Below are positions 1 through 19,176 of a stretch of 25,439 nucleotides of DNA, piece after piece. Origin of the DNA: a virus; IMG/VR virus record IMGVR_UViG_3300010885_024095, positions 1 through 25,439 of that record; one strand, 5' to 3'. Numbering within the stretch: position 1 is the first letter of the stretch; each line of letters begins with the position of its first letter. The notes beneath the pieces were generated by a model, which was not told the origin of the DNA, searched no databases, and saw nothing but the letters and a program-made list of their open reading frames with translations. The position numbers were made by a program, and so were the translations under genes.

Positions 1-1
1 A

Positions 2-175
2 ACCAAATCTAAATCATTTAAACCAGTATTAAATAATGGAACAAATATGATGAATTCTATTACAAATTTTTATAAGGGATCTCTTGGTAGTGGATTAGGT
101 GCTAGTGGATTGGGTGGATTAACAGGTCTTGCTGCACCACTTACTCCACCAAGTGGTTTAGGTGGTGTGTTATGA
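2..175 (+). CDS. 3' end of an unidentified gene upstream of the spike gene (partial)
   Basis: An open frame enters from the left edge and stops with TGA at 173-175. It gives 57 residues and no start is needed inside the window. The visible tail has a short polar part and then a Gly/Leu/Ser/Pro-rich end (repeated GLG and GGL steps) typical of a flexible linker or C-terminus. The stop overlaps the ATG of the next gene (ATGA at 172-175), which points to translational coupling. By position it could be a tail-tube or hub protein (gp48, gp54 or gp53 type), or the hub/OB-fold part missing from the following spike gene. Nothing visible decides between these, so no function is assigned. Confidence 0.7.
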   Translation, partial: TKSKSFKPVLNNGTNMMNSITNFYKGSLGSGLGASGLGGLTGLAAPLTPPSGLGGVL

Positions 176-194
176 GTCTGGGTGGTTTAGGTGG
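154..194 (+). repeat. 12-bp direct repeat flanking the gene junction
   Basis: TGGTTTAGGTGG occurs at 154-165 and again at 183-194, 29 bases apart. Each copy is read in the same phase by its own gene, giving GLGG in both proteins, although the two genes lie in different frames. Loss of one repeat unit (29 bases) would therefore fuse the upstream gene to the spike gene in frame. Glycine-rich coding can produce such repeats by chance. Confidence 0.6.
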
Positions 195-2334
195 AGCATC
201 AGATTCGTTAAGTGGATTAGATCCACTACTAGCAGTAGGTAATTGGAATGAACCAAAGACTGCTTACGGTAAAGTAAAAGGTAAAAAGATAAAAAAGAAA
301 AAGGGTAAAACTAGCACAATTTATCCGTTTAATAAAGTTCAAGAATCAGAATCTGGTCATATATTTGAAATCGACGATACTCCTGGTTCTGAAAGAATAC
401 ATTTATTTCATCGTTCTGGTACTTTTCAAGAAATCCATCCAAACGGAGATTCTGTAACTAAAGTTGTTCGTGATAATTATACAAGTATTTTAAGAGATGA
501 TTATGTTCATATAGATGGTCATTGCAATGTTACAATAGACAAAGCATTAAAGATATTAGTTAATGCTGATAAAACTCCAAATCCTTCTAGCAGTGCAGTA
601 AATTTTGATATAGAAGTTGGAGAAAATGCAAATGTAAATATTATTATAAATCGTGGAAACTGCAATGTTCGATTAAAAAATGGAGATGCAAATTTTCTTT
701 TAAATCATGGAGATGTGAATATTCGCCAAGAAGCAGGAAATTATAATCATTTTGTTAATGGTGATTATAATTTAGAAGTTGCTGGTCATATGCATATGGT
801 TGTTGGCGAAGATCACGTTACAGAAATTGGTGGTAATAGAGATGTTAGAGTAGATGGAACTTTTGATAATTTAATGTTAACCATGGGGTACAAAGAAACA
901 ACTATTCTATTAGGTGATTTGAAATGTAATATTCTTGCAGGTAATAAACAATTATTTGTAGCAAAAACATATTCACAAACTATAGGAGTAACCAAATTAA
1001 CTAATATATTAGGATTAGAAGAAAAAACTGTTGGAATAAGTTATTCTCTTAGTTCTCCTATTATAAGTTTAAACGGAATAGTTGGCGCAGGTGGGCCTGG
1101 TATGGGGTTTGATATAACACCAACCGGTTATACAATTTCACATCCAATGAGTATAAATTTTGTTTCTCCTGTGATCTCAGTAACAGGAACTACATCTGTT
1201 GATATTTTTTCACCAGGAACAGTAAGAATGAATAGTGGAATAGATACACACATATTGTCTGGTGGATTATTGAATATGACTTCTGGTATTTCTTTAAATC
1301 TTTTATCACAAGGCACTGTCAACACTCTTGCATCTGGTGGTATATTTACTACAGGATCTTCCATTAATCTTAACGGAATACCTGCTGTTCCAATTCCTGC
1401 TGAACCAGCAATAGGTGGTATAATGGGATTGAGTACTTTAAGAATTACTCCACCATTAGTTCCAACCATACCAGTAATACCATATGTTCCTGGTTCTATG
1501 GGTGTATGGAGAAGAACTATAAATGGTGTAACTCCTATGATACTATTACGAACATCTATCATGTCTTTAAAGGCTCAATTAGCAGTATTGGATACTGCAG
1601 CAAATACAATTGCGGGTTTAAAAGGTCAAACAGGAGGAATTGCAGATTCTTCAACAATATTAAAATCTATAACAGAAGGAATTGGATCTGCGCTTTCTCC
1701 TGTTACAAAAGTTATGGCAGATGTTACAAACGGAGCAGCAGAAGTAGTTGCAAATGTTCAGGGTGCGGTTGATAATGTCACAGGTACAATTCAAGACATT
1801 GCAAGTATTCCTCAAGAAGCAATGCAGGCAGCTATGAGTGAAGTAACAGCACTAACAGAAGAGAATGGATTTATAGAAGGAATTAAAGGAGCATTGGGTG
1901 CTGTTACTGGATTTATTGGAGATATAGCGCAAACTATAACTGATATTATGTGTACAATAATGGATGCTATTGGTGGAGCATTAGATGCAGTTATGAAAGC
2001 AATAGATGATGCCATAGCAGCAATTATGAAAGGCATTAACGCAGTTTTGGATACAATAGGAGCAGTTATCGACAAAGTTATGGAAGTTATTGGTAAAATC
2101 ATTAAAGCTATAACAGATGCTATTGCTAAGGTATTTGATGCAATTGGCGGATTCATAGATGATATTATGGCGGGTATTGATGATATTTTCAGTTCTCTTG
2201 GAGGAAAGCCTATTGGATGTGGACAATCTGTTCAAGCCGAAGCAACAGAAACAGCAAATCAGAAAGATTATTCTGCAGCACTAGCAAATGGTGAAATTTC
2301 TGCGGATGAATATGATAGATTGGTTAACGGTTAA
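172..2334 (+). CDS. 5: Baseplate central spike protein, gp5-like beta-helix (no OB-fold or lysozyme domain in this frame)
   Basis: 720 residues. Residues about 50-100 match the entry to the gp5/VgrG C-terminal beta-helix: an ESGHIFEIDDTPG motif, then IHLFHRSGTFQEIHPNGD. Residues about 145-235 carry degenerate repeats with Gly every 7-8 residues and alternating hydrophobic strands, the pattern of the trimeric needle that pierces the outer membrane. Residues 34-46 are a lysine cluster. T4 gp5 (575 aa) has an OB-fold and a lysozyme domain before its needle; only about 50 residues precede the needle here, so both are absent from this frame. Residues about 565-680 form a long hydrophobic amphipathic helical run (Ile/Val/Ala spaced 3-4, with Asp and Lys between), unusual for a spike. 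The start is the ATG overlapping the previous stop; no strong Shine-Dalgarno is seen, consistent with re-initiation. Spike assignment is secure; the role of the C-terminal helices is unknown. Confidence 0.85.
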   Translation: MSLGGLGGASDSLSGLDPLLAVGNWNEPKTAYGKVKGKKIKKKKGKTSTIYPFNKVQESESGHIFEIDDTPGSERIHLFHRSGTFQEIHPNGDSVTKVVRDNYTSILRDDYVHIDGHCNVTIDKALKILVNADKTPNPSSSAVNFDIEVGENANVNIIINRGNCNVRLKNGDANFLLNHGDVNIRQEAGNYNHFVNGDYNLEVAGHMHMVVGEDHVTEIGGNRDVRVDGTFDNLMLTMGYKETTILLGDLKCNILAGNKQLFVAKTYSQTIGVTKLTNILGLEEKTVGISYSLSSPIISLNGIVGAGGPGMGFDITPTGYTISHPMSINFVSPVISVTGTTSVDIFSPGTVRMNSGIDTHILSGGLLNMTSGISLNLLSQGTVNTLASGGIFTTGSSINLNGIPAVPIPAEPAIGGIMGLSTLRITPPLVPTIPVIPYVPGSMGVWRRTINGVTPMILLRTSIMSLKAQLAVLDTAANTIAGLKGQTGGIADSSTILKSITEGIGSALSPVTKVMADVTNGAAEVVANVQGAVDNVTGTIQDIASIPQEAMQAAMSEVTALTEENGFIEGIKGALGAVTGFIGDIAQTITDIMCTIMDAIGGALDAVMKAIDDAIAAIMKGINAVLDTIGAVIDKVMEVIGKIIKAITDAIAKVFDAIGGFIDDIMAGIDDIFSSLGGKPIGCGQSVQAEATETANQKDYSAALANGEISADEYDRLVNG

Positions 2335-2338
2335 TTTT

Positions 2339-2623
2339 ATGCAACCAGCCGCCAGAATAGGTATAGATACGGTTTTTGGTGGAATATTGATAAATGGTTC
2401 TCCCACAGTACTTGTAAATTCTTTACCTGTTGCTGTTTTAGGATCTTTTGTTGGTCCACATAGTCCATGTGGAGATGATGGTCAAGAACAGCATTGTTCA
2501 AGTAATATTATAACTGCTTCATCTACAGTATTTGCTGGCGGAATTCCCATTGCTAGAATGGGTGATTTTTCATCATGTGGTCATTTTATAGTAACAGGAT
2601 CACAAAATGTCTTTATTGGATGA
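2339..2623 (+). CDS. PAAR-domain spike tip protein
   Basis: 94 residues, the usual size of T4 gp5.4 and other free-standing PAAR proteins, which form the sharp metal-bound tip on the gp5/VgrG needle. The start is placed at ATG 2339, which begins MQPAARIG and so carries the canonical PAAR N-terminus. An earlier ATG in frame at 2288 would add 17 residues lying wholly inside the spike gene and unlike the family. Repeated strand motifs (INGSPTVLVN, TASSTVFAGG, VTGSQNVFIG) are typical of the fold. Candidate metal ligands are the His and Cys of GPHSPC, EQHC and SSCGH. It lies 4 bases after the spike gene, as expected for a partner that caps it. Confidence in family is high. Confidence 0.93.
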   Translation: MQPAARIGIDTVFGGILINGSPTVLVNSLPVAVLGSFVGPHSPCGDDGQEQHCSSNIITASSTVFAGGIPIARMGDFSSCGHFIVTGSQNVFIG

Positions 2624-2672: not shown

Positions 2673-3299
2673 ATGCAATTTAGTAATTTTTGGTTTGATA
2701 CTGGTACGGTTGTTGTTTCCTTTATTATGGGAGGAATTTTGGTATTTATGACAAATATTAAAAAAATGATAAAACCAACCGAAAATACCCCATTAGTAGT
2801 AGATTGTGATAAATTAACTAAAGAAAACTCAAGAATAAATGAAATTTTAACAGAATTACGAATAGTCTCTAATTGTAATAGAGCATCTATATCACAATTC
2901 CATAACGGTGGTCATTTTCTAGATGGCAGTTCTATGCTAAAAAGTTCTATTACACATGAATCATCTGATATATTAACTCTTCCCACAATAACCGATTATC
3001 AGGGTGTTCTTCTTAGTAGATTTAATGTACTTATGAATATTTTACATAAAGGTGATATAAGTATTCAATATGTTAGAGAAATGAAAAGTTCATTATGTAA
3101 ATACTTTATGGAATCTAAAGGAGTTGAGATATTTGCAGTTGTTTCTATTCATTCTTTGGATGGATTAAATATTATAGGGTATGCTTCTGTTGAATGGACA
3201 GATGTAGATATTAAGATTAATACTGATCTTGTACATAAACAGATGTTAGAAACACAACGACTGTTACAAATATTTTTAAATACTAAAAAAGGTTTCTAA
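2673..3299 (+). CDS. Membrane-anchored protein of unknown function with a possible GAF-like domain
   Basis: 208 residues. Residues about 8-28 form one hydrophobic segment followed by KKMIK, consistent with a single N-terminal transmembrane anchor and the rest in the cytoplasm. Residues 45-70 look helical (LTKENSRINEILTELR). They lead to RASISQFHNGGHF and then SSMLKSSITHE, a motif I associate with GAF/PAS-like sensory folds in bacterial and phage hypothetical proteins. That association is from memory and not proven here. A central beta-rich part (EIFAVVSIHSLDG, IIGYASVEW) fits such an alpha/beta fold. It has its own promoter-like box and Shine-Dalgarno, and its stop shares a base with the start of gene 25 (TAATG). 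Finding it within baseplate genes is odd; a role in membrane-linked assembly, lysis or sensing is possible but unsupported. Confidence 0.75.
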   Translation: MQFSNFWFDTGTVVVSFIMGGILVFMTNIKKMIKPTENTPLVVDCDKLTKENSRINEILTELRIVSNCNRASISQFHNGGHFLDGSSMLKSSITHESSDILTLPTITDYQGVLLSRFNVLMNILHKGDISIQYVREMKSSLCKYFMESKGVEIFAVVSIHSLDGLNIIGYASVEWTDVDIKINTDLVHKQMLETQRLLQIFLNTKKGF

Positions 3300-3674: not shown

Positions 3675-5573
3675 ATGAATGAAAATCGACAAAATATAAG
3701 CAATTTAGATTTTATATCAATTAAAAGTTCTCTTATTGATTTCTTAAGTAATCAAACAGAATTTAAAGGATATTCGTTTGAAGGTGCATCAATGAACGTA
3801 TTGATGGATCTGTTATCATACAATACTTATTACAGTGCATTTTATAACAATTTAGCAATAAATGAATCATTTTTAGATTCTGCACAAAAAAGAAATTCTG
3901 TTATTTCTATTTCAAAAAATTTAGGATATATTCCCGCATCTTCTGTTTCTGCAAAGGCTAAAATAAATATTAAAATTGCTGCAGAGGATTATACAGGAGA
4001 AAAAATTCTTAGAAATACTGTGATTACTGCTATAAATTCTGCAAATGAAACAATACCGTTTACAGTTATGACAGATCACACACTATCTCCTTATGAATAT
4101 GATATAGATGATCCTACGGTTATTGTATCGTATGCTGCTACAGATGTTGACATTCGTCAAGGCGTACTTGCATCATATACACATATTGTATCGGATCCAT
4201 TAGCAAAAATTAAACTACCATATACTAATATAGAAACGGATACCATTAGAGCAATGGTTCTCTTAGGAATCAATGATGTTCTTGGTTTTCAGAATGAGTG
4301 GAATAATGCAAAAAATATTACAGAAGTAGATTCTGAATCTAAAATATTTTTTACCAATGAAGAAAATAATGGAATTTATCAAATACAATTTGGAGATGGA
4401 ATTTTTGGCAAAAAACTAAGTGGAGGAAATGTTGTTGTTTTTGAATTTCTGATTACATCTGGACTTGCAGGAAATGATATAGGTAAGATGGATACACAAG
4501 TAACTAGTTCTTTCACACTCTCAGGATATGAAATAGAAACCGTTCAATATTCAAATAACGGATCAAATAGAGAAGGCATTGAAAGTGTTCGCCGAAACGC
4601 ATTAAAAAACTTTTCTGTTCAAGAAAGAGCAGTTACTGCTAGTGATTATGAAGCAACTTTTATTAAATTATTTCCAAATATTGAATCAATACGATGTTGG
4701 GGTGGAGAAGATAGTATTCCACCACAATACGGCACAGTCATAGCTTCTATAAAACCTAAAAATGCTCCGTTCTTAACGAGCAGTGAAAAGATGGAAATCA
4801 TAGAACAAATTTCTAGAACTAAAGCAATAGTTGGTACAAATATACAAATAAAAGATCCTGATATTTTATATTTAAATGTTATTCTTAATGTTAAATATGA
4901 TCCATCAATAACCTTGGATACAGAAGAAAACATTAAACAAGTCATAATAAACAAATCTACAGCATACGTTTATAGCAATTACAAAGGATTTGATGATGAT
5001 TTTTATTCTTCAGATTTTATAAAGAATTCCGTATTTTTTCATTCAAGTATTGCTTCTGTTCTTATTGATGCAAAAATTGAAAAACGAATATATCCAGTAT
5101 TGGGAATTTCTAATGGATATACCTTAAAATTTGGAAATAAATTATACAAACCAAATTTAGAATATACCACAGTATCTTCTAATGGTTTTTACACTAATAT
5201 AATATCTAACGGAGCACTGATCAAGAAGGTATCATATATTGAAGATTCTAATGGTATTTTAAATGTTTATTATTATGATCTAGATGCAGTAACTGCAAAG
5301 ATTGTAAAGGTATTAATCTCTACTATTGGAACTGTAAATTATGAAACAGGAGAAATGATCATTAATCGTTTAACGGTTGATGGATTTTATAATGATATAA
5401 ATCATGTTGCAATAAAATGTATAACCGATGATGATGATGTTTTTACCGACAAGAATACTGTATTTGCATTTGATAAATATTCTATGGATAACATAGTGGT
5501 TAATATGAAAAAAGTTACAAAAAATACTTTAAATAATATCTCTGCAGCAAATAGGATATACGGTAATACTTAA
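3675..5573 (+). CDS. 6: Baseplate wedge protein gp6
   Basis: 632 residues against 660 in T4 gp6. The N-terminus matches the family: a NISNLDFISIKSSLIDFL motif, then YSFEGASMNVLMDLLSYNTYY, NESFLDSAQKR and LGYIPASS, which together define the gp6/baseplate J-like N-terminal helical part. The middle has FGDGIFGKKLSGG and RRNALKNFSVQERAVTASDYE, also typical of J-like baseplate proteins. Gp6 dimerises into the continuous inner ring of the baseplate, joining neighbouring wedges, and binds gp7 and gp25 through a core bundle. The TAA stop shares its last base with the ATG of the next gene, so the two are probably translationally coupled. No truncation is seen. Confidence 0.93.
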   Translation: MNENRQNISNLDFISIKSSLIDFLSNQTEFKGYSFEGASMNVLMDLLSYNTYYSAFYNNLAINESFLDSAQKRNSVISISKNLGYIPASSVSAKAKINIKIAAEDYTGEKILRNTVITAINSANETIPFTVMTDHTLSPYEYDIDDPTVIVSYAATDVDIRQGVLASYTHIVSDPLAKIKLPYTNIETDTIRAMVLLGINDVLGFQNEWNNAKNITEVDSESKIFFTNEENNGIYQIQFGDGIFGKKLSGGNVVVFEFLITSGLAGNDIGKMDTQVTSSFTLSGYEIETVQYSNNGSNREGIESVRRNALKNFSVQERAVTASDYEATFIKLFPNIESIRCWGGEDSIPPQYGTVIASIKPKNAPFLTSSEKMEIIEQISRTKAIVGTNIQIKDPDILYLNVILNVKYDPSITLDTEENIKQVIINKSTAYVYSNYKGFDDDFYSSDFIKNSVFFHSSIASVLIDAKIEKRIYPVLGISNGYTLKFGNKLYKPNLEYTTVSSNGFYTNIISNGALIKKVSYIEDSNGILNVYYYDLDAVTAKIVKVLISTIGTVNYETGEMIINRLTVDGFYNDINHVAIKCITDDDDVFTDKNTVFAFDKYSMDNIVVNMKKVTKNTLNNISAANRIYGNT

Positions 5574-8500
5574 TGTCTGATTCTATAATAGATATAAAAT
5601 TTCCAACAGAATCATATAACTTATATGGTAATTCTTTAAATTTTAGATATACTATTAATAATAATATACAGAATACAAACATTTATAAAGTTGTATTATC
5701 GTTAGATGGTAACAGTGAAATAGAAATTGATCTATTTGATAAGGGTTATAATTTTACGTTTTTAAGTGCTGGCAGTCATGTTCTAACTGGATACATTAAA
5801 AGAATAAAAACAGGAAAAATTGAAAAGTCTGATTTTAAAATAACATTTAATGTGGTAGGAGAAAAATATAATCCAGAATCTCCAACGTGGTTCTTAATAA
5901 AAGAAAAAATTCCACAATTTATTAGGGAAGATTACAAATTATTTACTCGTTTCGTAGAAGCGTATTATGAGTGGCTAGACAAATCTAATAATCCTGTCTA
6001 TTCACAATTCTCCTTGGAAAATATTTCAGATGTAGATACCACTCCAGATATATTTTTAGATACATTTAGAACACAATATCTTAATGATTTTCCTAAAAGT
6101 ATTTCAGATATATCAGAATTAAATTTACGACAAATTATAAAAAATATTAAACAGTTTTATGTGCGAAAAGGTACAGAATCTGCTTATAGATTTTTGTTTA
6201 GGTTGTTATATAGAACATATATTGAAATATATTATCCTAAAAATACTTTGATGAAGGCTTCTGGTGATTTATGGATTCAAAAAAATACAATAAAGGTTAG
6301 AGGATTAACCGAAAAAACTGCACTACTGGTTAAAAATTGTATAATTTATCAGAAAAAATCTAATAATACAACTCAGGCTTATGCAAGAATAATAGAAGTA
6401 GTATTAAATGATATACCAAATGAAAATATTTATGAATTAACATTATCTAATATATCAGGTAAATTTGGAATTAAAACCGATGAAGAAAATTGGCTAGATT
6501 ACATTAAAGGTATTTTAGGCGAAACTGTTTACGTTGATATTCAATTAGATGACGCTGACAACACTATAGAATTAAAAATAGTACCAGTAATTGATACTAT
6601 TGATTTTACAAGTGGTGGATTTTCTGTTGGAGACACAATTGTTATACCAAATAGACCAGTAAAAAATGAAACTGGAGATTCATATTTGGCTTTAGTTACA
6701 AAAATACAAAAACCAGAACTTGATGATAGGAGACACTTATTTATAAGTGATTTGGAAAATCCTGATGGATTGTGTGCTGGTATGCCTATTATTGATACTA
6801 TAGAAAAATATGAAAGATGTATGGAAAATTTTGCTATTCCTACAACCTCCACAACTTCAACCTCTACTTCCACCACCTCTACCTCCACCTCTACCTCAAC
6901 GGCAGCACCAACCTCTACTACCTCCACCTCTACCTCAACAGCAGCACCAACCTCTACAACATCTACTTCTACATCCACCACATCCACTACTTCTACTACA
7001 TCCACTACTTCCACCACCTCTACATCTACCTCTACCTCAACAGCAGCACCAACTTCCACCACCACTTCTACAACATCAACCACTACAGCAGCACCACAAA
7101 ATTTACCAACATTTTCGATATCAGGATGGGGAACTTTTTCATGGAGTACTATAGAAGGAACAGATTGGAAGAATGAAGAAATTAATACTAGTACTTCAAC
7201 TTATCAAGATAACACTGGTAGACTTACTCAACTTGGTGGACAGATAGAAACCACTGCAGTATCTGTAGTAACTGGAAATCAGTTTGCAACAGCACTCTTT
7301 AATCATAATCCTGCAAGAGATACTTTAATAGGATTACATGCGTTAAGTTGGGGAAATGACAATGCTGGTGGATATCTTAGCAACCAAGACGCTGCGTATA
7401 GAAGCAATCAGATAAATCAAAGACTTAATCCTAATATGGTATCTTCTGGTTTTTCTCATACTGTAGCAATTATGAGTTATAATAGTGCAACTCTTGGAGC
7501 AACCGCAAGTATTGAAAGTTGGGGCAGACCAACGGGATCTATGCCATACGGTTTAGATACTCCGCCAATAAAGACTGAAGAGGGCGGAACTACTGGATTC
7601 AGTAATAATGATTACCTCAATATTACAAAAGTAGTAGCGGGTCATTATCATAATGTATTATTACATAGCGATGGAACAGTTTCAGCATTTGGTTTTAATT
7701 TGTATGGAAGATGTAAAGGTACTGGAGTTGGTGGAGTTAAAATACAGACAACTCCATGGAATGAAGCAAATGTGCAAGCATCATTAGATGCAGGAATAAA
7801 TCCTGGAGGATGGAAAGTAATTATTGATAATGTTATATTACAAAATGTTGTAGATATTGCAGCAGGAGAAAATCATACCATGGCTTTAAAATCTGACGGA
7901 TCAATTGTATGTTGGGGAGCAAGTAATGAGAGTAATGGCTTTGGTCAATGTAATGTTCCATCAATACTAAGAACTGCAAACAGTGAAAATATTATTAAGA
8001 TTACTTGTGGCAGCGCCACTTCTCATGCAGTTAGAGCAAATGGAACAGTTATTTCGTGGGGAAATAACGGTAAAGAACAATGTGGTACAAAAGCAACAAG
8101 TATTGGTACGCCTAATGATGAAATTTACACAGATTCAACATCAGGATCTGGTAATTGGGGAGAATCTAATAGTAAAAATGGTTTATATTGGATTAAAACC
8201 ACACTTCAGGGTAGTGATATTGTAGACATTCAAGGAGGTACAAATCATACGGTAGTACTATTAGATAATAATTCAGTGTTTGCTTGGGGTGACAATCTTA
8301 AAGGTCAATGCACCGTTCCAGGAAATTTACAAGGAGGAATACATTCTATTTCTTGCAAAGGCGACCACACTATGGTTTTATATAAAGATCCTATGGAAAA
8401 AAAATTAAGATTTACAACAAGCACTTTACCAAATGAATATACACCATGGACAGATTTGGGTTGTGGATGTGACGGAAATCGTACTAGAAAAGAATCAACA

Positions 8501-9247
8501 GAAGGCAAAATAGAAGAATTAAAAATAATAAATTCTGGTTATGATTATAGATTGGCAGTTGATGGTAATTTTGTAATTAAAAAGAGAAATTCTAAGGGAG
8601 AAGAACGAATTGTAAACGGTACTCCTCGTATATCTCCAATTACACATTATGCTGGATATTGGAAGACAAATGCATCTTCTGCTAGTTCTGGTGGTATTCT
8701 TAGAGATAATATGAAAAATCAAGAATTATCATATGTTCTAAGAACGGACTTAGATCCTACAATTTTCCTAGATGTAGTTAAACGTATAATCCATCCAGCG
8801 GGTGTTGGAATATTTACAGAATCTCTACTTAAACGAAATGAACTTATTTCATGGAAAAGAAATTTACAATTTGATATAGCATTTACTCCAAAAATAGGTA
8901 ATTACATAGCGTATCAGATCAATTCATCCCTTAATTTAAGAAATACTGGCAATCTAGATTATCCTGATCTTTATCCAAATGGATATGACTATTTTGCAAA
9001 TAAACCATCACAAACCGATGAAGAAGGTTATTTTATACACAAACCTAGTACAAATGGTGCTATTGATTATAATATTGAAAATATGTATTTTTTGTATATC
9101 CCTGAAGTATCGGATAGCGAAAATATTTATAAATATTGGGTAGTATATCCTCACATTAATAGTTTAATACAGAATACTGGTGTAGAAATGAAAGATTTAA
9201 AAATTAGCGATATGATCGATATTCCTTTGCAAATAGTAATTCCATAA
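5573..9247 (+). CDS. 7: gp7-like baseplate wedge protein with inserted Thr-rich stalk and RCC1-like beta-propeller
   Basis: 1224 residues (T4 gp7 is 1032). Residues about 1-95 look like an Ig or FN3-type beta domain. Residues about 110-235 are the conserved helical core: IPQFIREDYKLFTRFVEAYYEWLD, then FYVRKGTESAYRFLFRLLY and IEIYYPKNTLMKASG, matching T4 gp7 FYSTKGIEASYKFLFKVLY. The second core segment, VVKRIIHPAGVGIFTESLL near residue 1070, matches T4 VIRFVHPVGFGF. Between them lie a Thr/Ser/Ala-Pro low-complexity stretch (about 424-508) and an RCC1-like repeat domain (about 515-940). Gp7 joins gp6 and gp25 in the wedge core and reaches to the baseplate periphery. Start is TAATG overlap with gene 6; the next gene begins after one base. 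Core identity is firm; the inserted domains are the unusual part. Confidence 0.85.
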   Translation: MSDSIIDIKFPTESYNLYGNSLNFRYTINNNIQNTNIYKVVLSLDGNSEIEIDLFDKGYNFTFLSAGSHVLTGYIKRIKTGKIEKSDFKITFNVVGEKYNPESPTWFLIKEKIPQFIREDYKLFTRFVEAYYEWLDKSNNPVYSQFSLENISDVDTTPDIFLDTFRTQYLNDFPKSISDISELNLRQIIKNIKQFYVRKGTESAYRFLFRLLYRTYIEIYYPKNTLMKASGDLWIQKNTIKVRGLTEKTALLVKNCIIYQKKSNNTTQAYARIIEVVLNDIPNENIYELTLSNISGKFGIKTDEENWLDYIKGILGETVYVDIQLDDADNTIELKIVPVIDTIDFTSGGFSVGDTIVIPNRPVKNETGDSYLALVTKIQKPELDDRRHLFISDLENPDGLCAGMPIIDTIEKYERCMENFAIPTTSTTSTSTSTTSTSTSTSTAAPTSTTSTSTSTAAPTSTTSTSTSTTSTTSTTSTTSTTSTSTSTSTAAPTSTTTSTTSTTTAAPQNLPTFSISGWGTFSWSTIEGTDWKNEEINTSTSTYQDNTGRLTQLGGQIETTAVSVVTGNQFATALFNHNPARDTLIGLHALSWGNDNAGGYLSNQDAAYRSNQINQRLNPNMVSSGFSHTVAIMSYNSATLGATASIESWGRPTGSMPYGLDTPPIKTEEGGTTGFSNNDYLNITKVVAGHYHNVLLHSDGTVSAFGFNLYGRCKGTGVGGVKIQTTPWNEANVQASLDAGINPGGWKVIIDNVILQNVVDIAAGENHTMALKSDGSIVCWGASNESNGFGQCNVPSILRTANSENIIKITCGSATSHAVRANGTVISWGNNGKEQCGTKATSIGTPNDEIYTDSTSGSGNWGESNSKNGLYWIKTTLQGSDIVDIQGGTNHTVVLLDNNSVFAWGDNLKGQCTVPGNLQGGIHSISCKGDHTMVLYKDPMEKKLRFTTSTLPNEYTPWTDLGCGCDGNRTRKESTEGKIEELKIINSGYDYRLAVDGNFVIKKRNSKGEERIVNGTPRISPITHYAGYWKTNASSASSGGILRDNMKNQELSYVLRTDLDPTIFLDVVKRIIHPAGVGIFTESLLKRNELISWKRNLQFDIAFTPKIGNYIAYQINSSLNLRNTGNLDYPDLYPNGYDYFANKPSQTDEEGYFIHKPSTNGAIDYNIENMYFLYIPEVSDSENIYKYWVVYPHINSLIQNTGVEMKDLKISDMIDIPLQIVIP
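6838..7098 (+). repeat. Low-complexity Thr/Ser repeat tract, almost G-free on the coding strand
   Basis: The tract is built from threonine and serine codons (ACN, TCN) in which G appears only in the Ala-Ala-Pro punctuations (GCAGCACCA). A unit of 24 bases, CTCTACCTCAACRGCAGCACCAAC, is split here as CTCTACCTCAAC plus RGCAGCACCAAC and occurs at 6889-6912, 6928-6951 and 7030-7053. The first copy has G at the variable position. It encodes STSTxAAPT-type peptide repeats. All three forward frames and one reverse frame stay open across it, as expected from a sequence almost unable to form stop codons. Unit copy number could change by slippage without breaking the frame. Confidence 0.93.
7108..8392 (+). 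other. RCC1-like repeat domain inside the gp7-like protein
   Basis: Successive repeats carry the RCC1 signature of a Gly-rich turn, His-Thr, a strand ending in DG, and then a W-G pair: SSGFSHTVAIM (7439), VAGHYHNVLLHSDGTVSAFG (7630), AAGENHTMALKSDGSIVCWG (7856), TCGSATSHAVRANGTVISWG (7998), QGGTNHTVVLLDNNSVFAWG (8228) and SCKGDHTMVLYKD (8347). An earlier ALSWGNDN at about 7340 suggests a first blade. Six to seven blades fit one closed propeller. Such domains bind proteins or glycans; a receptor-binding or decoration role here is inference. Confidence 0.85.
9122..9137. promoter_or_regulatory. Possible late promoter box in a 16-bp palindrome near the end of the gp7-like gene
   Basis: AATATTTATAAATATT is a perfect palindrome and contains TATAAATA (9128-9135) on the forward strand and the same octamer on the reverse strand. 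The forward box lies about 113 bases upstream of gene 8. It is inside coding sequence, so chance in AT-rich DNA is a serious alternative. Confidence 0.25.
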
Positions 9248-11592: not shown

Positions 11593-14500
11593 ATGCCGTA
11601 TACGCATAACTCACTTTTGCAAAATGATCCTTATAATGATGATTTTGATGATTATAAGAATTTTTTAAGAATTCTGTTTAAACCAGGTTATGCTGTACAG
11701 GCTAGAGAACTTACTCAATTACAAACTATATTACAAAATCAAATATCAAAATTTGGAGATCATATTTTTAAAGATGGAAGTCTTGTAACTGGTGGATTAA
11801 CAAGTTTAAGTAAAGTTTCTTTTGTTCGTTTATATGGCAATTATCAAATTGATAATTTAAATAACCTTGTTGGTCATTTTCTAATTGGAGACGTAAACCC
11901 TAACAATAGAGCAAAAGTTATTGCTGTGTTGCCAGCGACTGTCTATGACAATTACGCTATTGTTTTCTTGCAATATTGGTCAGACACTACTCTATCATAT
12001 TCTGAAAATTTATATGTTGATACCTTTCTTCAGACTCTTAAGGATTTTTTAGGATCAACAAGTGCTACTATAAGAATAAAACCATTAAATACTGATAATG
12101 ATTCTATAGGAAATGCAACTGCAGTAACCATTGATGATGGTTTATTTTATGTTGATGGATTTTTTGTTAATACTGTTTCTCAAATTCTACCATTGTATAC
12201 TACTACTTTTGACGGAAAAAGAATATTCAATTCTCCTACAAATATTTTTGGTTTTACTATAAACAAAAGTGCTATAACTACAAAAACTGACACTAGTCTA
12301 ACAGATCCTGCAAACGGGTCTTATAATTTTGCTGCTCCTGGTGCGGATCGTTATAGAATAGATTTAATACTAAATTCTTTACCATATGACGGAAATACTT
12401 CTATTGATAATTCTTCTCAAATTTCTGCTGAAAATTTTATAGAAATTGGAAGAATTTTAGATGGTAAATTAATATTTGTTAAAAACACTCCAAATTATTC
12501 AGATATAATAGATTTGTTGGCTAAAAGAACTTTTGATGAATCTGGTTCATATACCACAAAACCTTTTGAAATTGAAATTAAAAATCATATTAGAAGAGAT
12601 ATGGTTTCTGCAAATATCACTCTTCTTTCTGAAAATGCATATACAGAAACTCCAACACCTTCTATTACCAGAATTCCATTCACATACCCTGCAGCTAGTG
12701 ATACTCCGTATATTATAGATAATCAGGTATCAGATAATCTTCCTCCTACTGTTGGTGATATTCTTATAGAATCATCTACTGGTATAGAATATAAAATTAT
12801 CAAGGTTAGTGATATATTAAAAAATTCTTTTGAGAGTAATACTACTATTGTTGGAACAGTAAATGTTGTATTACAGCCATTAGATTCTTATGTGTATAAA
12901 TTTAAAAATCGTACTGGTGCAGAAAATAATCCATATACACTATTAAAGGCTAATGAAAATAAATTTGCATTAAAAAGATTAGGAAATACTAATACTCAAC
13001 AATCTTCCTGCTATTATGTTACAAATTCTGTTCCATTTATTATTGCTGATAATACAGGTACAAATTCTATTTTAGACACAGTTACTGGTGATCCTGATAA
13101 ATTTTCTATTGTAGTTAAACCTGGTAAAGCATATATTTATGGATATGAATTTGAAACATCTTCTCCTGTATATGTTAGTTCGGATAAACCTAGAGATTAT
13201 CTAGTTGTTGAAAATAATATTATAGATACAACAATTGGTAATTATTTAAAAATAAATTCAACTGTATTGGGTGATGATCCTTCATTTTTCTATTTTTCTC
13301 CTAAAGATGTTAATGATAGTTCAACTGGTAAACATGATACCTCTATACAATTTGATAAATTACCAGATGTAACTTTAAAAAGTAATATATCTTCTATTTT
13401 ATTCCCAAGAGGAGATGATATTTTTACAGTACTTAAAGTTTTATATTGGTCTCCAAGCATTAAAAATATTCAAAAACCTAACGATTTTACATCATTAGTA
13501 TCTCAACCAATGGTTATTGGAATTGCTAATTACAGAGATATGTATGATACTGGTGCTATATCTTATACTAAAACAAATTTGTATCAAAGTGTTTTATTTA
13601 TTGCTCATAAAACAGATGTAGGACGACCAGTATTGTTTGGTGAAGCAGGATCTGATTCAGAAAATAGTTTTATAGATTCTAGAACAACCAAAGATAAAGG
13701 TATTTTAAAATTAGGAAAAAATACACCATCTATTAAAATATTAGATAATTCATATAGAACTGAATTTAATATTTCTAGACTAGTATTCAGTGAGTTGTAT
13801 CATGGAGATTTTACTACAGCATATGATACATTAATTAAATCTACAAATATAAATAATATTTTAGACTCTGCTCATAGAACATATGAAGACAATGAAAGCA
13901 ATTATGTTTATCAGGTAGATTATTTAAATATTGGTTCTTTCCCCCAATCGCCAACAACTTTAACAGATATACAATCTCATATCAGAGTAAAGCAAGCAAA
14001 TACTAGGAGATGGATTCCTGGTGGCTCATATCAAGGACTAACCTCTCCTAGTACTCTTTATGTTGAAATACCGGAATATAATGTTATGTTTGGCCCATCT
14101 GCTGATATGAATCAGACATATCAATCATTTAGTTTACCAGGAGATAATACTTCATACGAATCTGGTTGTATATTTAATCCTACTTCAGAGTTCAATATGT
14201 CTTATGGTACAAGTATAGTTCATTCTATAGATGAAAATGATGTATGGGAAATAAAATTAACAACTAGTCCTACTTCAGGTGGAGCATCATGTGTTGAAGA
14301 TATTGGAGCTCAAACTGTTAGAGGTATAGGTGCGTATGTTGTTGGTCGTCAAGTAAGACAGGTATATTACTTTAATAATGAATTAGTAGAAGCAACAGGA
14401 ATAATTATGAAAGTGTTGAATTCTACAGGATCTCATACAGTATTTGTTAAGAAACAAGGAAATGGTGATTTTATTCCTCAAAGTTTAGATGGTACAACAC

Positions 14501-17500
14501 TATATGATGGTATTAGTGCATTAGTCATGCAGGATACTCCTCAAGGTCAAATTTGTGCATGTTATAGTATTGCAAGTGCTTCTCTAAGAGAAGAAGCTAG
14601 TCCGACATGTGGTCAATATACTAGTATTAAATTTTCAGAACAATCAAACAGCGGAGATTTTGTAGAAGGTAAAACAGTATATCAATATAATCTTGACGTT
14701 GTTCCAACAACAAATGATTCAAATCAAAATTTACAAAATCTAATTGCTGTTGGTATAGTTGTTAATTGGGATAAAACTACATCCGAATTAACAATATTAA
14801 CAACCAAAAATCAATTTAATGCCAAATACGGATGGATCTTTCAACAAGGAACTACTGTTAGATATGGTGGAAGAGGATGGGTGAATAATTTACATTTAAC
14901 TGAAAATATTTCTAGTAAAATAGGCATAAAGAAAAGTTATGGTATATTTGTAGATCTAGAACAAGTTGATAATTATCAAGAATTTTCAGATTCTTTGGAT
15001 ACTAGTGCTTCTATAGATGAAAAAATAGCAACGCAATTACGTGTAAATATGGATTCTATTTTAACACCTAATGCATTAACGGGTTTACCTTCTACACTAT
15101 TACCTGATGGATTTATTGATAGTTCAATGATTGGTAATAAAGTTTATCAAGAAATTGAAGGAATTATTTCAGAGGGTGAAGTTGTTTATTTTGATAGAGG
15201 AACTCCTGAGAATGGTTATTCAATTTTAACAATTAAAGAAATACCAGGAAAAACTTTTGAGTTTCAAATTGGTGTTCCATATGATATAACTTATAATGTT
15301 CCAAATACAGATCCTACTGCAGCTGTAGAGGTAATACATTTTAATACAATTAATTCACAAGTTGCAAACCCACTGTCAACAATGAATACTACAGTTAATT
15401 TTGATCCAAATGCTCCTATTGTTTCTATGGTTTTGCCAAAATCTACTATAGCAAAGGCAAAATTAAAACAAATTAAATATTATCCAAATGATGGTGATAA
15501 AAATTCAAATGAATATTATTTGTACTTATCTGATATTGTTCCGTTTATTGTTCCAGGATCAAATAATATTTATGAAATAACAAACATTAATTCAGTTTTT
15601 GTTACTCCAAAAGGTGGAGGACCATTAAACGAAATACAATTATTTAAAGTAGCAACAGATTCTCCAAATTTATCTTCCCCTACAAATAATACTCTTTTAT
15701 ATAAACCCGAATTAGGTGTTAGAATAAAAGAAATAACAAATCTAACCTATGAACTTCAAACAGATTTATTGGGTAGTTATATTGCAGGTTCTAGTACTAT
15801 TTCTTTTAAATTGGGTATTGCTGCAAATTGTAAATTTAAAGGTTCACATAATTCTAAAATAACTACAGATATTTTAAGTACTGATTATATTTTAATTTCA
15901 AATACTTCTAGAGTTATAAATTTAGCAGATAATAAATATGTTTCTTCTACTAATATTTCAGTAGATAACATAACCTTAACTGTTAATTTAACACCTGAAG
16001 GTATATCTAAGATGGAAGCAGGTACTTATAGATTATTGTGTCCTGTTGCAGTAACAGGATCTCTTTCTTCGAATATAAGAACAAAAACAAAAAAGAAAAG
16101 AATTGAAGTTACATCATTTAACGATGCTACAGGAATTATATCTTTAAGAAGTTCTGATGTTATTTCCATAGATTCGTGTGTTGATTTGGATACTAATACA
16201 CAAATTCCTTTGGAAATTTTACAATTAAATACAAATCAGACTCAGAATATGTACAAACTTTCCACAGTAACTGCAAAAGAAACATGGAGAGATTATAATT
16301 TTCCAGATTCTACAAGAACTTTTGTTAAAGCAGTTCCAAATGGAACTCCTTGTTTGATTTCATATACGTATTTTGATCATGGTACAGAATCTGGTCCTAT
16401 TATTCCAGCATCATATATTGATGGTTATGATCAAAATCCAATACATTTAGATCCTAGTACAAATCAAAAAATACAATTAGATTCTGTTATAGATTTCAGA
16501 CCATATCAATACATATCGGATATTGGTAATATTGAAACTGCTGGAATAACAGGAATTCCTATAACTGGTTCTACTATGAATATATCATATTCATATTATC
16601 TTCCTAGAAAATATAAATTAGTATTGTCGCGCGACAAGACAATGAGTTTAATTGGTGGAGTTTCTTCATTAGATCCAACTTTTCCAAGTGATCAGTTATA
16701 CAGCATGACATTATTTAAAATAGAAGTGCCAGCATATTTTGGAGAAACCGATACAGCAAAATTGGTTAATATTAATCATCAAAGATATACCATGGATGAT
16801 ATTCGCGTATTGGAAGAACGTATTGAAAATATAGAATATATTACAAAATTAAATTATCTAGAACAATCTGCACAAAGAACTGTTATATTGAATGATATGG
16901 AAAAAGAAAGACCAAAAACTTCTATTCTTGTTGATTCATTTATAAATCATGAAATTGGTGATACATTAAATCCTGATTATAATATCTGTATAGATTCTGA
17001 TAAAAACATTCTAAGACCAACATTTGATTGTAAATTTATTAATATGGAATTAAATCAGCAAAAATCTACAGGATTGTATCGTGTTATTAGAGAATATCAA
17101 CCAGCAGGAAATAGTCAATTTACTATTGCTCCAAATTTAGTAACTTTAAATTTTTCAAGTATTCCTGAAATACAACAATTACAATACACAGATATAATGA
17201 AAATATCTCCATTTTCTATAGATATGTGGATAGGTGATATTAGTCTTTCTTCTAATGGAGATTTTGTATACGATGCTTCAGTAACACCAGATGTTGTTAG
17301 TAATTATAATGGAGAAAATGATACATTTCAGAATATGAAATATTCTGCATTAAATAACAATTTAGGAGCGTTTGGTACTAAATGGAATTTCTGGAAAAAA
17401 AATTGGCAAGGTTATTCTGAAGATAGTAAGGGAGAAACTCAATTTTTAGGACACTTAGATGAAAGAATAAAAGTACAAACTCCAAAAATTTCTAAAAAGA

Positions 17501-19176
17501 AAATAGGAGAAAATACAATAGATATTGATATTGTTCCATATGTTTCTTCAAAGACAATTAATATGTTTGTCCGAAAGATGAAACCTAATACTAGAATTTA
17601 TCCATATTTTGATGGTGTTCGTGTTGATTCATATTGTTCAAATATTATAAATCCTGCATCTAGAATATTTACTACAGATTCTGTTGGTTCTATTAATTTA
17701 CAATTTACTATTCCACAAGGGGAATTTAAAACTGGTCAAAAGAATATTATTGTTATGGATAATGAAAACTATGAACCATCTTTAGCAACAACTTATGCAC
17801 AAGCCGATTATACTACAAATGGATTTATTACAGAATTAAATGATCATTTATCATCATATCAAACTAAAAATGTATCATTTAATGGTTCTGGTCAACAAAC
17901 CATATTGGCTCAAACATTTTCAGTAGATGTAAATAAATATCCTAATGGTATGTTTATAAGTAAAATTGATATGTATTTTGCAAGTAAAGATCAAATATTA
18001 CCAATAACATTAGAAATCAGACCAGTATCTTCAGGTGTTCCTGTTATCGGTGAAAATGCATATGCATATCCATCTTCAACGGTTTCAAAATCACCATCAC
18101 AAATTACAACGGTTTCTGCTCCTACTTCTGCTAATGGAACATCATTTGAATTTGATGCACCTGTGCATTTATTACCAGGAGAACATTCTATTGTTTTATA
18201 TACAAATAGTGATATGTATTCGGTATGGACTGCTGAGAGTGGAAAGATTATTCAAAACAGTTCAAATCGAGCATCTACTCAACCATATGCTGGTAAGTTA
18301 TTTAAAACTAATAAAAATTCTAATTGGATTTCATATGAAAATATAGATTTATCGTTTCAAATGCACAGATGTCAGTTTGAAACATCTGCGGAATTAATTT
18401 TTAACGAAGAATCTATATTGAATTTTTCAGGTTATGAATATTCTCTTGCAAATATAAATCTTTCACATTTTGATTTTAGTTCTAACATGACAGAGATTGG
18501 TATAAAGGTTATTGATCAAATTGGGGATGATATATATTCTGAAGCAATTCCTCAACAAACTATAAATCCAAATACAAATATTTATTTTGATTCAAAAAAA
18601 CAATTATTATATAACGGTTCTAGTGTATTGTTATCTGTTAAATTACACAGTGATGGTGTAATTGCTCCATTAATAGATCTTGATAGATTAAAATTGATAA
18701 CTGTTTCAAATATAATATCTACCATGAAAGAACAAACATTTACTAGTTCTGGTGGTATGGTGACTAGAGAAAGAAATGAATTATATCCATTCTCAACATC
18801 TCATACAGATTTTATTAATGCTAGGTATATTACAAAAACTGTTGAACTTGATCCTCAAATGCAAACTAAAGATTGTTATGTGTATTTAAAAATAAATAGA
18901 CCAGAAGGAACGGGACTAAACGTATACATCAAACGTCAATTTATTGATACTGATACAGGGGCTAAAGATTTACCATACGAACTATTAGAATCTGTGGTTA
19001 TTGATACTCCTACTAGTGATCCTAATAAATTTACAGATATTACTTTTAAGATTCCTGAAACGGCGGTAAACAACACATTTATGAGATATTCTATTAAATT
19101 GGTATTGTATGCAAATGAAAAAAATAGCCATGTAGTACCAAAACTTAAAGATTTAAGAATAATCACAGTAGCATAA
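11593..19176 (+). CDS. Giant DUF4815-type virion structural protein
   Basis: 2527 residues. The N-terminus (DPYNDDFDDYKNFLRILFKPGYAVQARELTQLQTILQ, read in parts, then FGDHIFKDGSLVTGG) is the hallmark of DUF4815 proteins, found in T4-like phages of marine bacteria as large baseplate or fibre components. Further landmarks are KPGKAYIYGYEFE near residue 507, AKAKLKQIKYY near 1286, LDSVIDFRPYQY near 1636, a predicted coiled coil (VLEERIENIEYITKLNYLEQ) near 1735, and MFVRKMKPNTRIYPYFDGV near 1990. The stretch of about 700 residues between the second and third landmarks looks like an insertion and is not recognised. Position after gene 8 suggests an outer baseplate role similar to gp9/gp10, by inference. 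AGGA lies 12 bases before the ATG. Confidence 0.85.
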   Translation: MPYTHNSLLQNDPYNDDFDDYKNFLRILFKPGYAVQARELTQLQTILQNQISKFGDHIFKDGSLVTGGLTSLSKVSFVRLYGNYQIDNLNNLVGHFLIGDVNPNNRAKVIAVLPATVYDNYAIVFLQYWSDTTLSYSENLYVDTFLQTLKDFLGSTSATIRIKPLNTDNDSIGNATAVTIDDGLFYVDGFFVNTVSQILPLYTTTFDGKRIFNSPTNIFGFTINKSAITTKTDTSLTDPANGSYNFAAPGADRYRIDLILNSLPYDGNTSIDNSSQISAENFIEIGRILDGKLIFVKNTPNYSDIIDLLAKRTFDESGSYTTKPFEIEIKNHIRRDMVSANITLLSENAYTETPTPSITRIPFTYPAASDTPYIIDNQVSDNLPPTVGDILIESSTGIEYKIIKVSDILKNSFESNTTIVGTVNVVLQPLDSYVYKFKNRTGAENNPYTLLKANENKFALKRLGNTNTQQSSCYYVTNSVPFIIADNTGTNSILDTVTGDPDKFSIVVKPGKAYIYGYEFETSSPVYVSSDKPRDYLVVENNIIDTTIGNYLKINSTVLGDDPSFFYFSPKDVNDSSTGKHDTSIQFDKLPDVTLKSNISSILFPRGDDIFTVLKVLYWSPSIKNIQKPNDFTSLVSQPMVIGIANYRDMYDTGAISYTKTNLYQSVLFIAHKTDVGRPVLFGEAGSDSENSFIDSRTTKDKGILKLGKNTPSIKILDNSYRTEFNISRLVFSELYHGDFTTAYDTLIKSTNINNILDSAHRTYEDNESNYVYQVDYLNIGSFPQSPTTLTDIQSHIRVKQANTRRWIPGGSYQGLTSPSTLYVEIPEYNVMFGPSADMNQTYQSFSLPGDNTSYESGCIFNPTSEFNMSYGTSIVHSIDENDVWEIKLTTSPTSGGASCVEDIGAQTVRGIGAYVVGRQVRQVYYFNNELVEATGIIMKVLNSTGSHTVFVKKQGNGDFIPQSLDGTTLYDGISALVMQDTPQGQICACYSIASASLREEASPTCGQYTSIKFSEQSNSGDFVEGKTVYQYNLDVVPTTNDSNQNLQNLIAVGIVVNWDKTTSELTILTTKNQFNAKYGWIFQQGTTVRYGGRGWVNNLHLTENISSKIGIKKSYGIFVDLEQVDNYQEFSDSLDTSASIDEKIATQLRVNMDSILTPNALTGLPSTLLPDGFIDSSMIGNKVYQEIEGIISEGEVVYFDRGTPENGYSILTIKEIPGKTFEFQIGVPYDITYNVPNTDPTAAVEVIHFNTINSQVANPLSTMNTTVNFDPNAPIVSMVLPKSTIAKAKLKQIKYYPNDGDKNSNEYYLYLSDIVPFIVPGSNNIYEITNINSVFVTPKGGGPLNEIQLFKVATDSPNLSSPTNNTLLYKPELGVRIKEITNLTYELQTDLLGSYIAGSSTISFKLGIAANCKFKGSHNSKITTDILSTDYILISNTSRVINLADNKYVSSTNISVDNITLTVNLTPEGISKMEAGTYRLLCPVAVTGSLSSNIRTKTKKKRIEVTSFNDATGIISLRSSDVISIDSCVDLDTNTQIPLEILQLNTNQTQNMYKLSTVTAKETWRDYNFPDSTRTFVKAVPNGTPCLISYTYFDHGTESGPIIPASYIDGYDQNPIHLDPSTNQKIQLDSVIDFRPYQYISDIGNIETAGITGIPITGSTMNISYSYYLPRKYKLVLSRDKTMSLIGGVSSLDPTFPSDQLYSMTLFKIEVPAYFGETDTAKLVNINHQRYTMDDIRVLEERIENIEYITKLNYLEQSAQRTVILNDMEKERPKTSILVDSFINHEIGDTLNPDYNICIDSDKNILRPTFDCKFINMELNQQKSTGLYRVIREYQPAGNSQFTIAPNLVTLNFSSIPEIQQLQYTDIMKISPFSIDMWIGDISLSSNGDFVYDASVTPDVVSNYNGENDTFQNMKYSALNNNLGAFGTKWNFWKKNWQGYSEDSKGETQFLGHLDERIKVQTPKISKKKIGENTIDIDIVPYVSSKTINMFVRKMKPNTRIYPYFDGVRVDSYCSNIINPASRIFTTDSVGSINLQFTIPQGEFKTGQKNIIVMDNENYEPSLATTYAQADYTTNGFITELNDHLSSYQTKNVSFNGSGQQTILAQTFSVDVNKYPNGMFISKIDMYFASKDQILPITLEIRPVSSGVPVIGENAYAYPSSTVSKSPSQITTVSAPTSANGTSFEFDAPVHLLPGEHSIVLYTNSDMYSVWTAESGKIIQNSSNRASTQPYAGKLFKTNKNSNWISYENIDLSFQMHRCQFETSAELIFNEESILNFSGYEYSLANINLSHFDFSSNMTEIGIKVIDQIGDDIYSEAIPQQTINPNTNIYFDSKKQLLYNGSSVLLSVKLHSDGVIAPLIDLDRLKLITVSNIISTMKEQTFTSSGGMVTRERNELYPFSTSHTDFINARYITKTVELDPQMQTKDCYVYLKINRPEGTGLNVYIKRQFIDTDTGAKDLPYELLESVVIDTPTSDPNKFTDITFKIPETAVNNTFMRYSIKLVLYANEKNSHVVPKLKDLRIITVA

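Follow-up and report, generated by a model that had tools for sequence, protein, structure and literature searches.

Analysis of a 25,439-nucleotide stretch of viral DNA (IMG/VR record IMGVR_UViG_3300010885_024095; hereafter, the window) confirmed that the open reading frame at positions 172–2334 encodes a needle protein akin to T4 gp5C, which has neither an OB-fold nor a lysozyme and carries a long amphipathic helical C-terminus. Fairly probably, this ORF provides the needle portion of a T4-type central spike without lysozyme, divided between genes and furnished with a helical rod. The features on which this reading is based are as follows.

1..175, plus strand: 3' end of the OB-fold gene (whole gene, L001:8973–10004, 343 aa)
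172..2334, plus strand: needle gene, gp5C-like, 720 aa (profile and T4 gp5 matches)
307..861, plus strand: part alignable with T4 gp5C, residues 46–230 (phmmer)
862..1377, plus strand: probable continuation of the beta-helix, residues 231–402, ending in INLNG
1378..1509, plus strand: Pro-rich linker, residues 403–446, with a PGxxGxW motif at its end (G441 and W446 invariant)
1510..2241, plus strand: helical extension, residues 447–690 (periodicity and AlphaFold secondary structure)
1870..2217, plus strand: hendecad amphipathic helix, residues 567–682 (98.5–99.5 degrees in 23/23 homologues)
1951..1953, plus strand: Cys594, invariant in the alignment of 23 homologues
2218..2220, plus strand: Cys683, invariant in the same alignment
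2339..2623, plus strand: PAAR tip protein (Pfam PAAR_motif, 1.5e-13)

The needle gene and its neighbours

The 720-aa product of ORF 172–2334 (plus strand, ATG start, verified), the start of which is closely preceded by AGGTGG, a sequence resembling a ribosome-binding site, had been taken for a spike protein in a sequence-only reading, and this identification was borne out: the protein matches the gp5 profile PHROG_430 (1.4e-40), exclusively at profile positions 324–505, and residues 50–219 align with residues 386–554 of T4 gp5 (phmmer, 8.8e-14). The accompanying claim that this chain contains no OB-fold or lysozyme also holds, Pfam searches at E ≤ 1 having recovered no family of either kind. 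Cultured phages gave no match to residues 231–402, none of 1885 matching cultured-phage records covers 80% of the protein, and a scan of species genomes using one segment of the needle yielded no relative.

Genuine loss of the OB-fold can be ruled out because the adjoining upstream gene encodes one, which rewards the earlier advice to seek the missing hub domain in upstream genes. The window holds only the last 175 bases of this gene; its complete form is found on a separate contig, IMGVR_UViG_3300027754_000728 (L001), on which the spike gene is 100% identical and which reaches further upstream. The 343-aa product matches Pfam Gp5_OB (1.2e-14) and positions 14–145 of PHROG_430 (1e-41), and the OB and needle proteins represent the two ends of the gp5 profile, with positions 146–323 uncovered. 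Neither protein contains a lysozyme or other muralytic domain detectable in PHROG and Pfam profile searches. The OB gene and the needle start overlap by four bases (ATGA). Further upstream, L001 encodes a PHROG_350 tail protein in the place of gp27, a gp53-like protein and a tail-tube protein, the gp27-like hub, OB-fold and needle being three separate phage baseplate genes.

A scan of IMG/VR with the needle alignment (A4) yielded 80 loci, in 61 of which a separate OB gene is located directly 5' of the needle gene; 7 others begin too late on their contigs to show an OB gene, 11 have a 5'-cut needle ORF, and L139 encodes the sole fused OB–needle chain. Of these 61 loci, 60 have OB/needle junctions between −4 and +18 bases, the remaining one (−101, in L095) probably reflecting an early start call. 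A sequencing frameshift is ruled out as the origin of the split by its recurrence in many contigs with short junctions; on these sequence comparisons, the split is a trait of the lineage, recurrent in relatives. When the phmmer register (residue 50 on T4 386) is extrapolated across a variable linker, the needle start codons fall at approximately T4 positions 336–351. T4 gp5 is cut between Ser351 and Ala352, and both pieces remain associated (PMC3004832). On this approximate mapping, the split would lie near the T4 maturation cleavage. A literature search returned no title or abstract opening that names a gp5 split between genes or one with a hendecad extension.

Splits are seen among more distant loci too, and in some of these the OB gene also encodes a GH19 domain (L042, 8.6e-7). 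In cyanophage S-RIM44 (L168:3962–7962), a gp5-like gene of 973 aa is overlapped by the start of the next gene, of 359 aa and annotated as ‘baseplate lysozyme’, the product of which matches a haemagglutinin repeat family (1.3e-5) and not lysozyme; this pair is possibly another split needle.

Downstream of the needle, the PAAR gene probably starts at ATG 2339 (MQPAARIG...; the mechanical ORF begins at 2288, and homologues are about 93–97 aa long) and is followed by gp25-like, gp6-like, further wedge and gp8-like genes, the closest cultured gp6 proteins (~30–33% identical) being those of Caulobacter, cyanobacterial and Pelagibacter phages. Between the PAAR and gp25 genes, positions 2673–3299 encode a 208-aa protein with a weak match to PHROG_30125 (2.6e-5); in L117 and L138, both this gene and the PAAR gene are absent between the needle and gp25-like genes. 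The product of 5573–9247 is a baseplate wedge-like protein (PHROG_17744, 4.7e-40) with RCC1-type propeller repeats at residues ~590–936 (Pfam 1.2e-38, below the model cut-off; RCC1_2, 7.2e-30), and the 2527-aa product of 11593–19176, which matches DUF4815 (4.5e-48), is probably a tail fibre or baseplate protein.

The helical extension

Single-chain gp5 proteins end in IDLNP (Mosig and V45v66), INLN (X1), INLG (IME13) or IFLN (S-RIM2), and the needle described here has 318 residues (403–720) beyond its INLNG tip motif (398–402). An Ile/Val/Ala-rich amphipathic C-terminus had been proposed at residues 565–680. Its amphipathic character stood up well, residues 568–682 displaying a hydrophobicity period of 99 degrees that none of 300 shuffles equalled, but the span had been drawn too narrowly, the real extension covering about residues 447–690 and being appended after INLNG. 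In an alignment of 23 of the 26 distinct 3'-complete hydrophobic C-termini (L091, L121 and L129 were left out), the residues invariant from the tip onward are I398, N401, G402, G441, W446, L470, C594, I596, I640, G659, I662, C683 and G684. Related chains without helices (nine chains; L139 apart) stop soon after a similar W motif, and the helical block therefore looks cleanly appended.

An 11-residue (hendecad) repeat runs without break through residues 567–676 and is present in all 23 aligned homologues, each of which has a single coherent period of 98.5–99.5 degrees over 110 residues, with a normalised power of 24.2–39.0. Shuffled segments reached a power of at most 10.1 (100 shuffles); the gp5 proteins of X1, IME13 and Mosig, the OB protein and the virus's own probable tape measure gave 7.2–13.9, and the gp5 of cyanophage S-RIM2 gave 17.4, at 102 degrees. 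By this spectral measure, the periodicity is that of an 11/3 (hendecad) repeat, for which the ideal value is 98.2 degrees. The invariant I596, I640 and I662 occupy one and the same register position, which is also the least variable.

All 23 modules carry a net acidic charge, and no clear transmembrane helix was found in any of them by either hydrophobicity maxima or insertion sums. The 19-residue Kyte–Doolittle maxima range from 1.42 to 2.36, and the insertion sums (biological scale) from 2.2 to 7.2, that is, positive and unfavourable, so that this measure went against the suggested membrane insertion of the region around residues 565–680. The hydrophobic arc is ~200 degrees wide, and contact with lipids is possible for a helix of this make-up.

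AlphaFold models of the monomer include helices at residues 455–478, 508–544, 546–562, 570–621 and 626–675. The mean pLDDT is 46.6 for the whole chain and 44.5 for the extension (modelled with 20 of the 23 sequences), with residues 565–680 mostly below 50, and the models therefore show no packing. Residues 696–720 (window 2257–2331), with two short helices at pLDDT of about 71–88, are the sole confidently modelled part of the extension; they give weak SHOCT and VbhA matches and are not conserved in homologues. A conserved SHOCT-like tail (residues 696–719) was ruled out, the region past C683 being variable in the 23 homologues.

Within the clade, the extension tends to occur with the PAAR gene. 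The count covered the 67 loci in which the needle is 3'-complete and followed by at least 400 bases; it left out 8 loci because their needles are 3'-incomplete, 4 because too little sequence follows (L089, L098, L135 and L164) and the fused L139. The window, which has both extension and PAAR gene, is represented in the locus set by the short L089. A PAAR gene lies directly 3' of the needle in 28/30 loci with the extension versus 0/37 without it (24/25 versus 0/28 among unique sequences), counts that span related loci and are therefore not independent, the extension amounting to about two changes on a tree of 49 loci and 3 distant outgroups. Two joint changes of extension and PAAR would still be expected if the two were functionally linked. 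In L105 and L106, however, no PAAR gene lies near the extension, and the fused L139 has PAAR and lacks the helices. Beyond the clade, many T4-like phages encode PAAR without helices; judging from these distributions, PAAR does not need the extension, whereas the extension, in this clade, seems to accompany PAAR.

Origin and possible role of the extension

By analogy with T4, the OB-fold recognised in the upstream gene product would dock on the gp27-like hub, the needle gene would provide the trimeric beta-helix and the PAAR protein would form the tip, with the near-zero gene spacing holding synthesis of the OB and needle proteins about equal. Past the tip motif, the Pro-rich linker leads into the hendecad helices, three copies of which most likely associate into a straight rod or bundle of helices packed through Ile, either at the spike tip or folded back along it. 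Such a rod would stand in for the lysozyme domains found alongside the T4 needle, and contraction of the sheath would carry it into the periplasm together with the spike. That it acts there mechanically, as a collar, tether or conduit, and not as an enzyme is a proposal we make tentatively, with nearly as much to be said for it as against it.

One competing account concerns origin. The block could be a relocated module, whereby the helical block situated between the OB-fold and the needle in cyanophage gp5 moved to the C-terminus after the gene split. The OB protein (9.9e-33) and residues 551–662 (5.8e-9) each match PHROG_694, the top profile alignment places C594 on the invariant C328 of the cyanophage proteins, and in each family the helices are followed by an invariant Cys. 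However, the reversed segment retains a PHROG_694 match (3.7e-5), the hhalign probability of 86.5 for the extension against the cyanophage block compares with 84.5 and 76.0 for reversed controls, BLASTP gives 0.023, and the cyanophage period is weaker and lies at 102 degrees. We consider such a relocation somewhat unlikely.

The sequence-only reading had offered two roles for the helices, perturbation of membranes or a trimeric bundle around the tip. On the former, the helices would settle on the cytoplasmic membrane, or insert into it, once the outer membrane had been crossed and help to open a path for DNA. A comparable role has been proposed for portions of the tape measure proteins of other phages, and 11/3 amphipathic helices occur on lipid surfaces too; the wide hydrophobic face, the 11/3 periodicity and the best sequence look-alikes all fit this picture. 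When used alone, the C-terminus matches 159 cultured-phage records (Lactococcus, Arthrobacter and Streptococcus phages), and the 40 of these that were listed are all tape measure proteins. Yet these matches persist when the segment is reversed (2.7e-11 forward versus 2e-9 for the best reversed match) and the similarity therefore reflects composition and period; tape measure homology of the block is thus ruled out, the reversed control scoring nearly as high. Moreover, the virus has a probable tape measure of its own, the 832-aa product of L001:584–3082 (minus strand), which has no PHROG match, adjoins genes for gp26/gp51-type and tube-cap proteins and has a hydrophobic peak of 1.84 at residues 313–347. 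The low hydrophobicity maxima and positive insertion sums also speak against membrane action, as do the invariant, register-locked isoleucines, which suggest specific packing. Given the net acidic modules and the absence of a clear transmembrane helix, we favour an oligomeric helical rod over a membrane-perturbing peptide; of the two roles originally offered, the data lean to the bundle, and membrane action is unlikely.

It is quite unlikely that the extension merely assists assembly, by helping the needle to trimerise or fold from its C-terminal end or by holding PAAR or cargo, with no role at the envelope. Fibrous proteins commonly have C-terminal folding domains, as described in PMC4576200, and extension and PAAR occur together in this clade, but related needles dispense with it in 37 of the 67 counted loci, and T4 gp5C, as characterised in PMC3004832, trimerises without such an extension. 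Finally, by analogy with the phiX174 H tube, the helices, ~165 Å long if straight, could form a periplasm-spanning conduit or tether at the tip that replaces the T4 cell-wall enzyme, provides the tail tube or DNA with a path to the inner membrane and depends on the PAAR tip for delivery, a very improbable extrapolation.

Cell-wall enzymes of relatives and known spikes

In several relatives, enzyme-like sequences are found in the spike genes. L053 (5425–7218, T4-like) encodes a single OB–needle chain in which a GH19 domain follows the needle (2e-7), and a PAAR gene adjoins it; by analogy with ‘evolved’ VgrGs, which carry cargo, the needle protein of the window would fill this slot with a helical rod. 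In L056 (884–3888) and L073 (1233–4141), gp5 is split and, by eye, both halves end in peptidase-like sequence, the OB half of L056 matching VanY at 9.4e-4, below the family cut-off, and the copy on its needle having no Pfam support. A muralytic scan of six longer contigs of the clade found Phage_lysozyme in 1/6 and SLT in 0/6 (OB control, 6/6). The single hit (7.8e-8) is at the end of a 369-aa ORF (L172:895–2004), the long N-terminus of which is unrelated; this ORF shares a 118-kb contig with L110 but is located about 36 kb away from the hub.

The presence of a helical rod at a position that in relatives is often taken by a cell-wall enzyme suggests a different aid to passage through the bacterial envelope, and makes this spike a candidate for crossing of the cell wall by a contractile tail without a spike lysozyme. 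The needle end of a phage can serve as a cargo slot, occupied by the rod here and by GH19 in a relative, as in evolved VgrGs. Furthermore, in a recurrent, uncultured T4-like lineage, gp5 is divided between two genes, apparently near the point at which proteolysis divides it in T4, which would make the T4-style two-chain state reachable without a protease.

Comparison with known systems places the spike close to T4 gp5 and gp5.4 in its OB-fold, needle and PAAR parts and in its baseplate gene neighbourhood. The T4 product also ends as two chains, gp5* and gp5C; T4, however, derives them from one cleaved chain, whereas here there are two genes, no lysozyme, a longer needle and the 318-residue extension past the tip motif. 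Phage P1 gp5, as described in PMC9024508, consists of an OB-fold and a needle only, the muralytic domain being thought to reside on the tape measure; it thus resembles the present spike in the lack of lysozyme and in the PAAR-type tip protein but, in that description, is a single, short chain without a helical extension. In the cyanophage gp5 proteins (S-RIM2 and six others), no lysozyme is recognised, and a hydrophobic helical block with invariant flanking cysteines is present; that block, however, is located between the OB-fold and the needle of one chain, not at the C-terminus. In type VI secretion, evolved VgrGs carry a domain appended to the needle end that travels with the PAAR-capped spike (PMC7043769), as the extension would here; VgrG combines gp27-like and gp5-like parts in one chain encoded in a secretion locus, whereas we describe a phage baseplate in which the gp27-like hub and the OB-fold are separate genes and the extension is helical and apparently non-enzymatic. 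The phiX174 H tube, 170 Å long and built of hendecads and heptads, is long enough to span the cell wall (PMC7354561). The likeness to this long helical coil with 11/3 repeats is one of analogy only, the H tube being, in that account, a decamer of a separate pilot protein with three hendecads followed by heptads and an amide-rich inner face.
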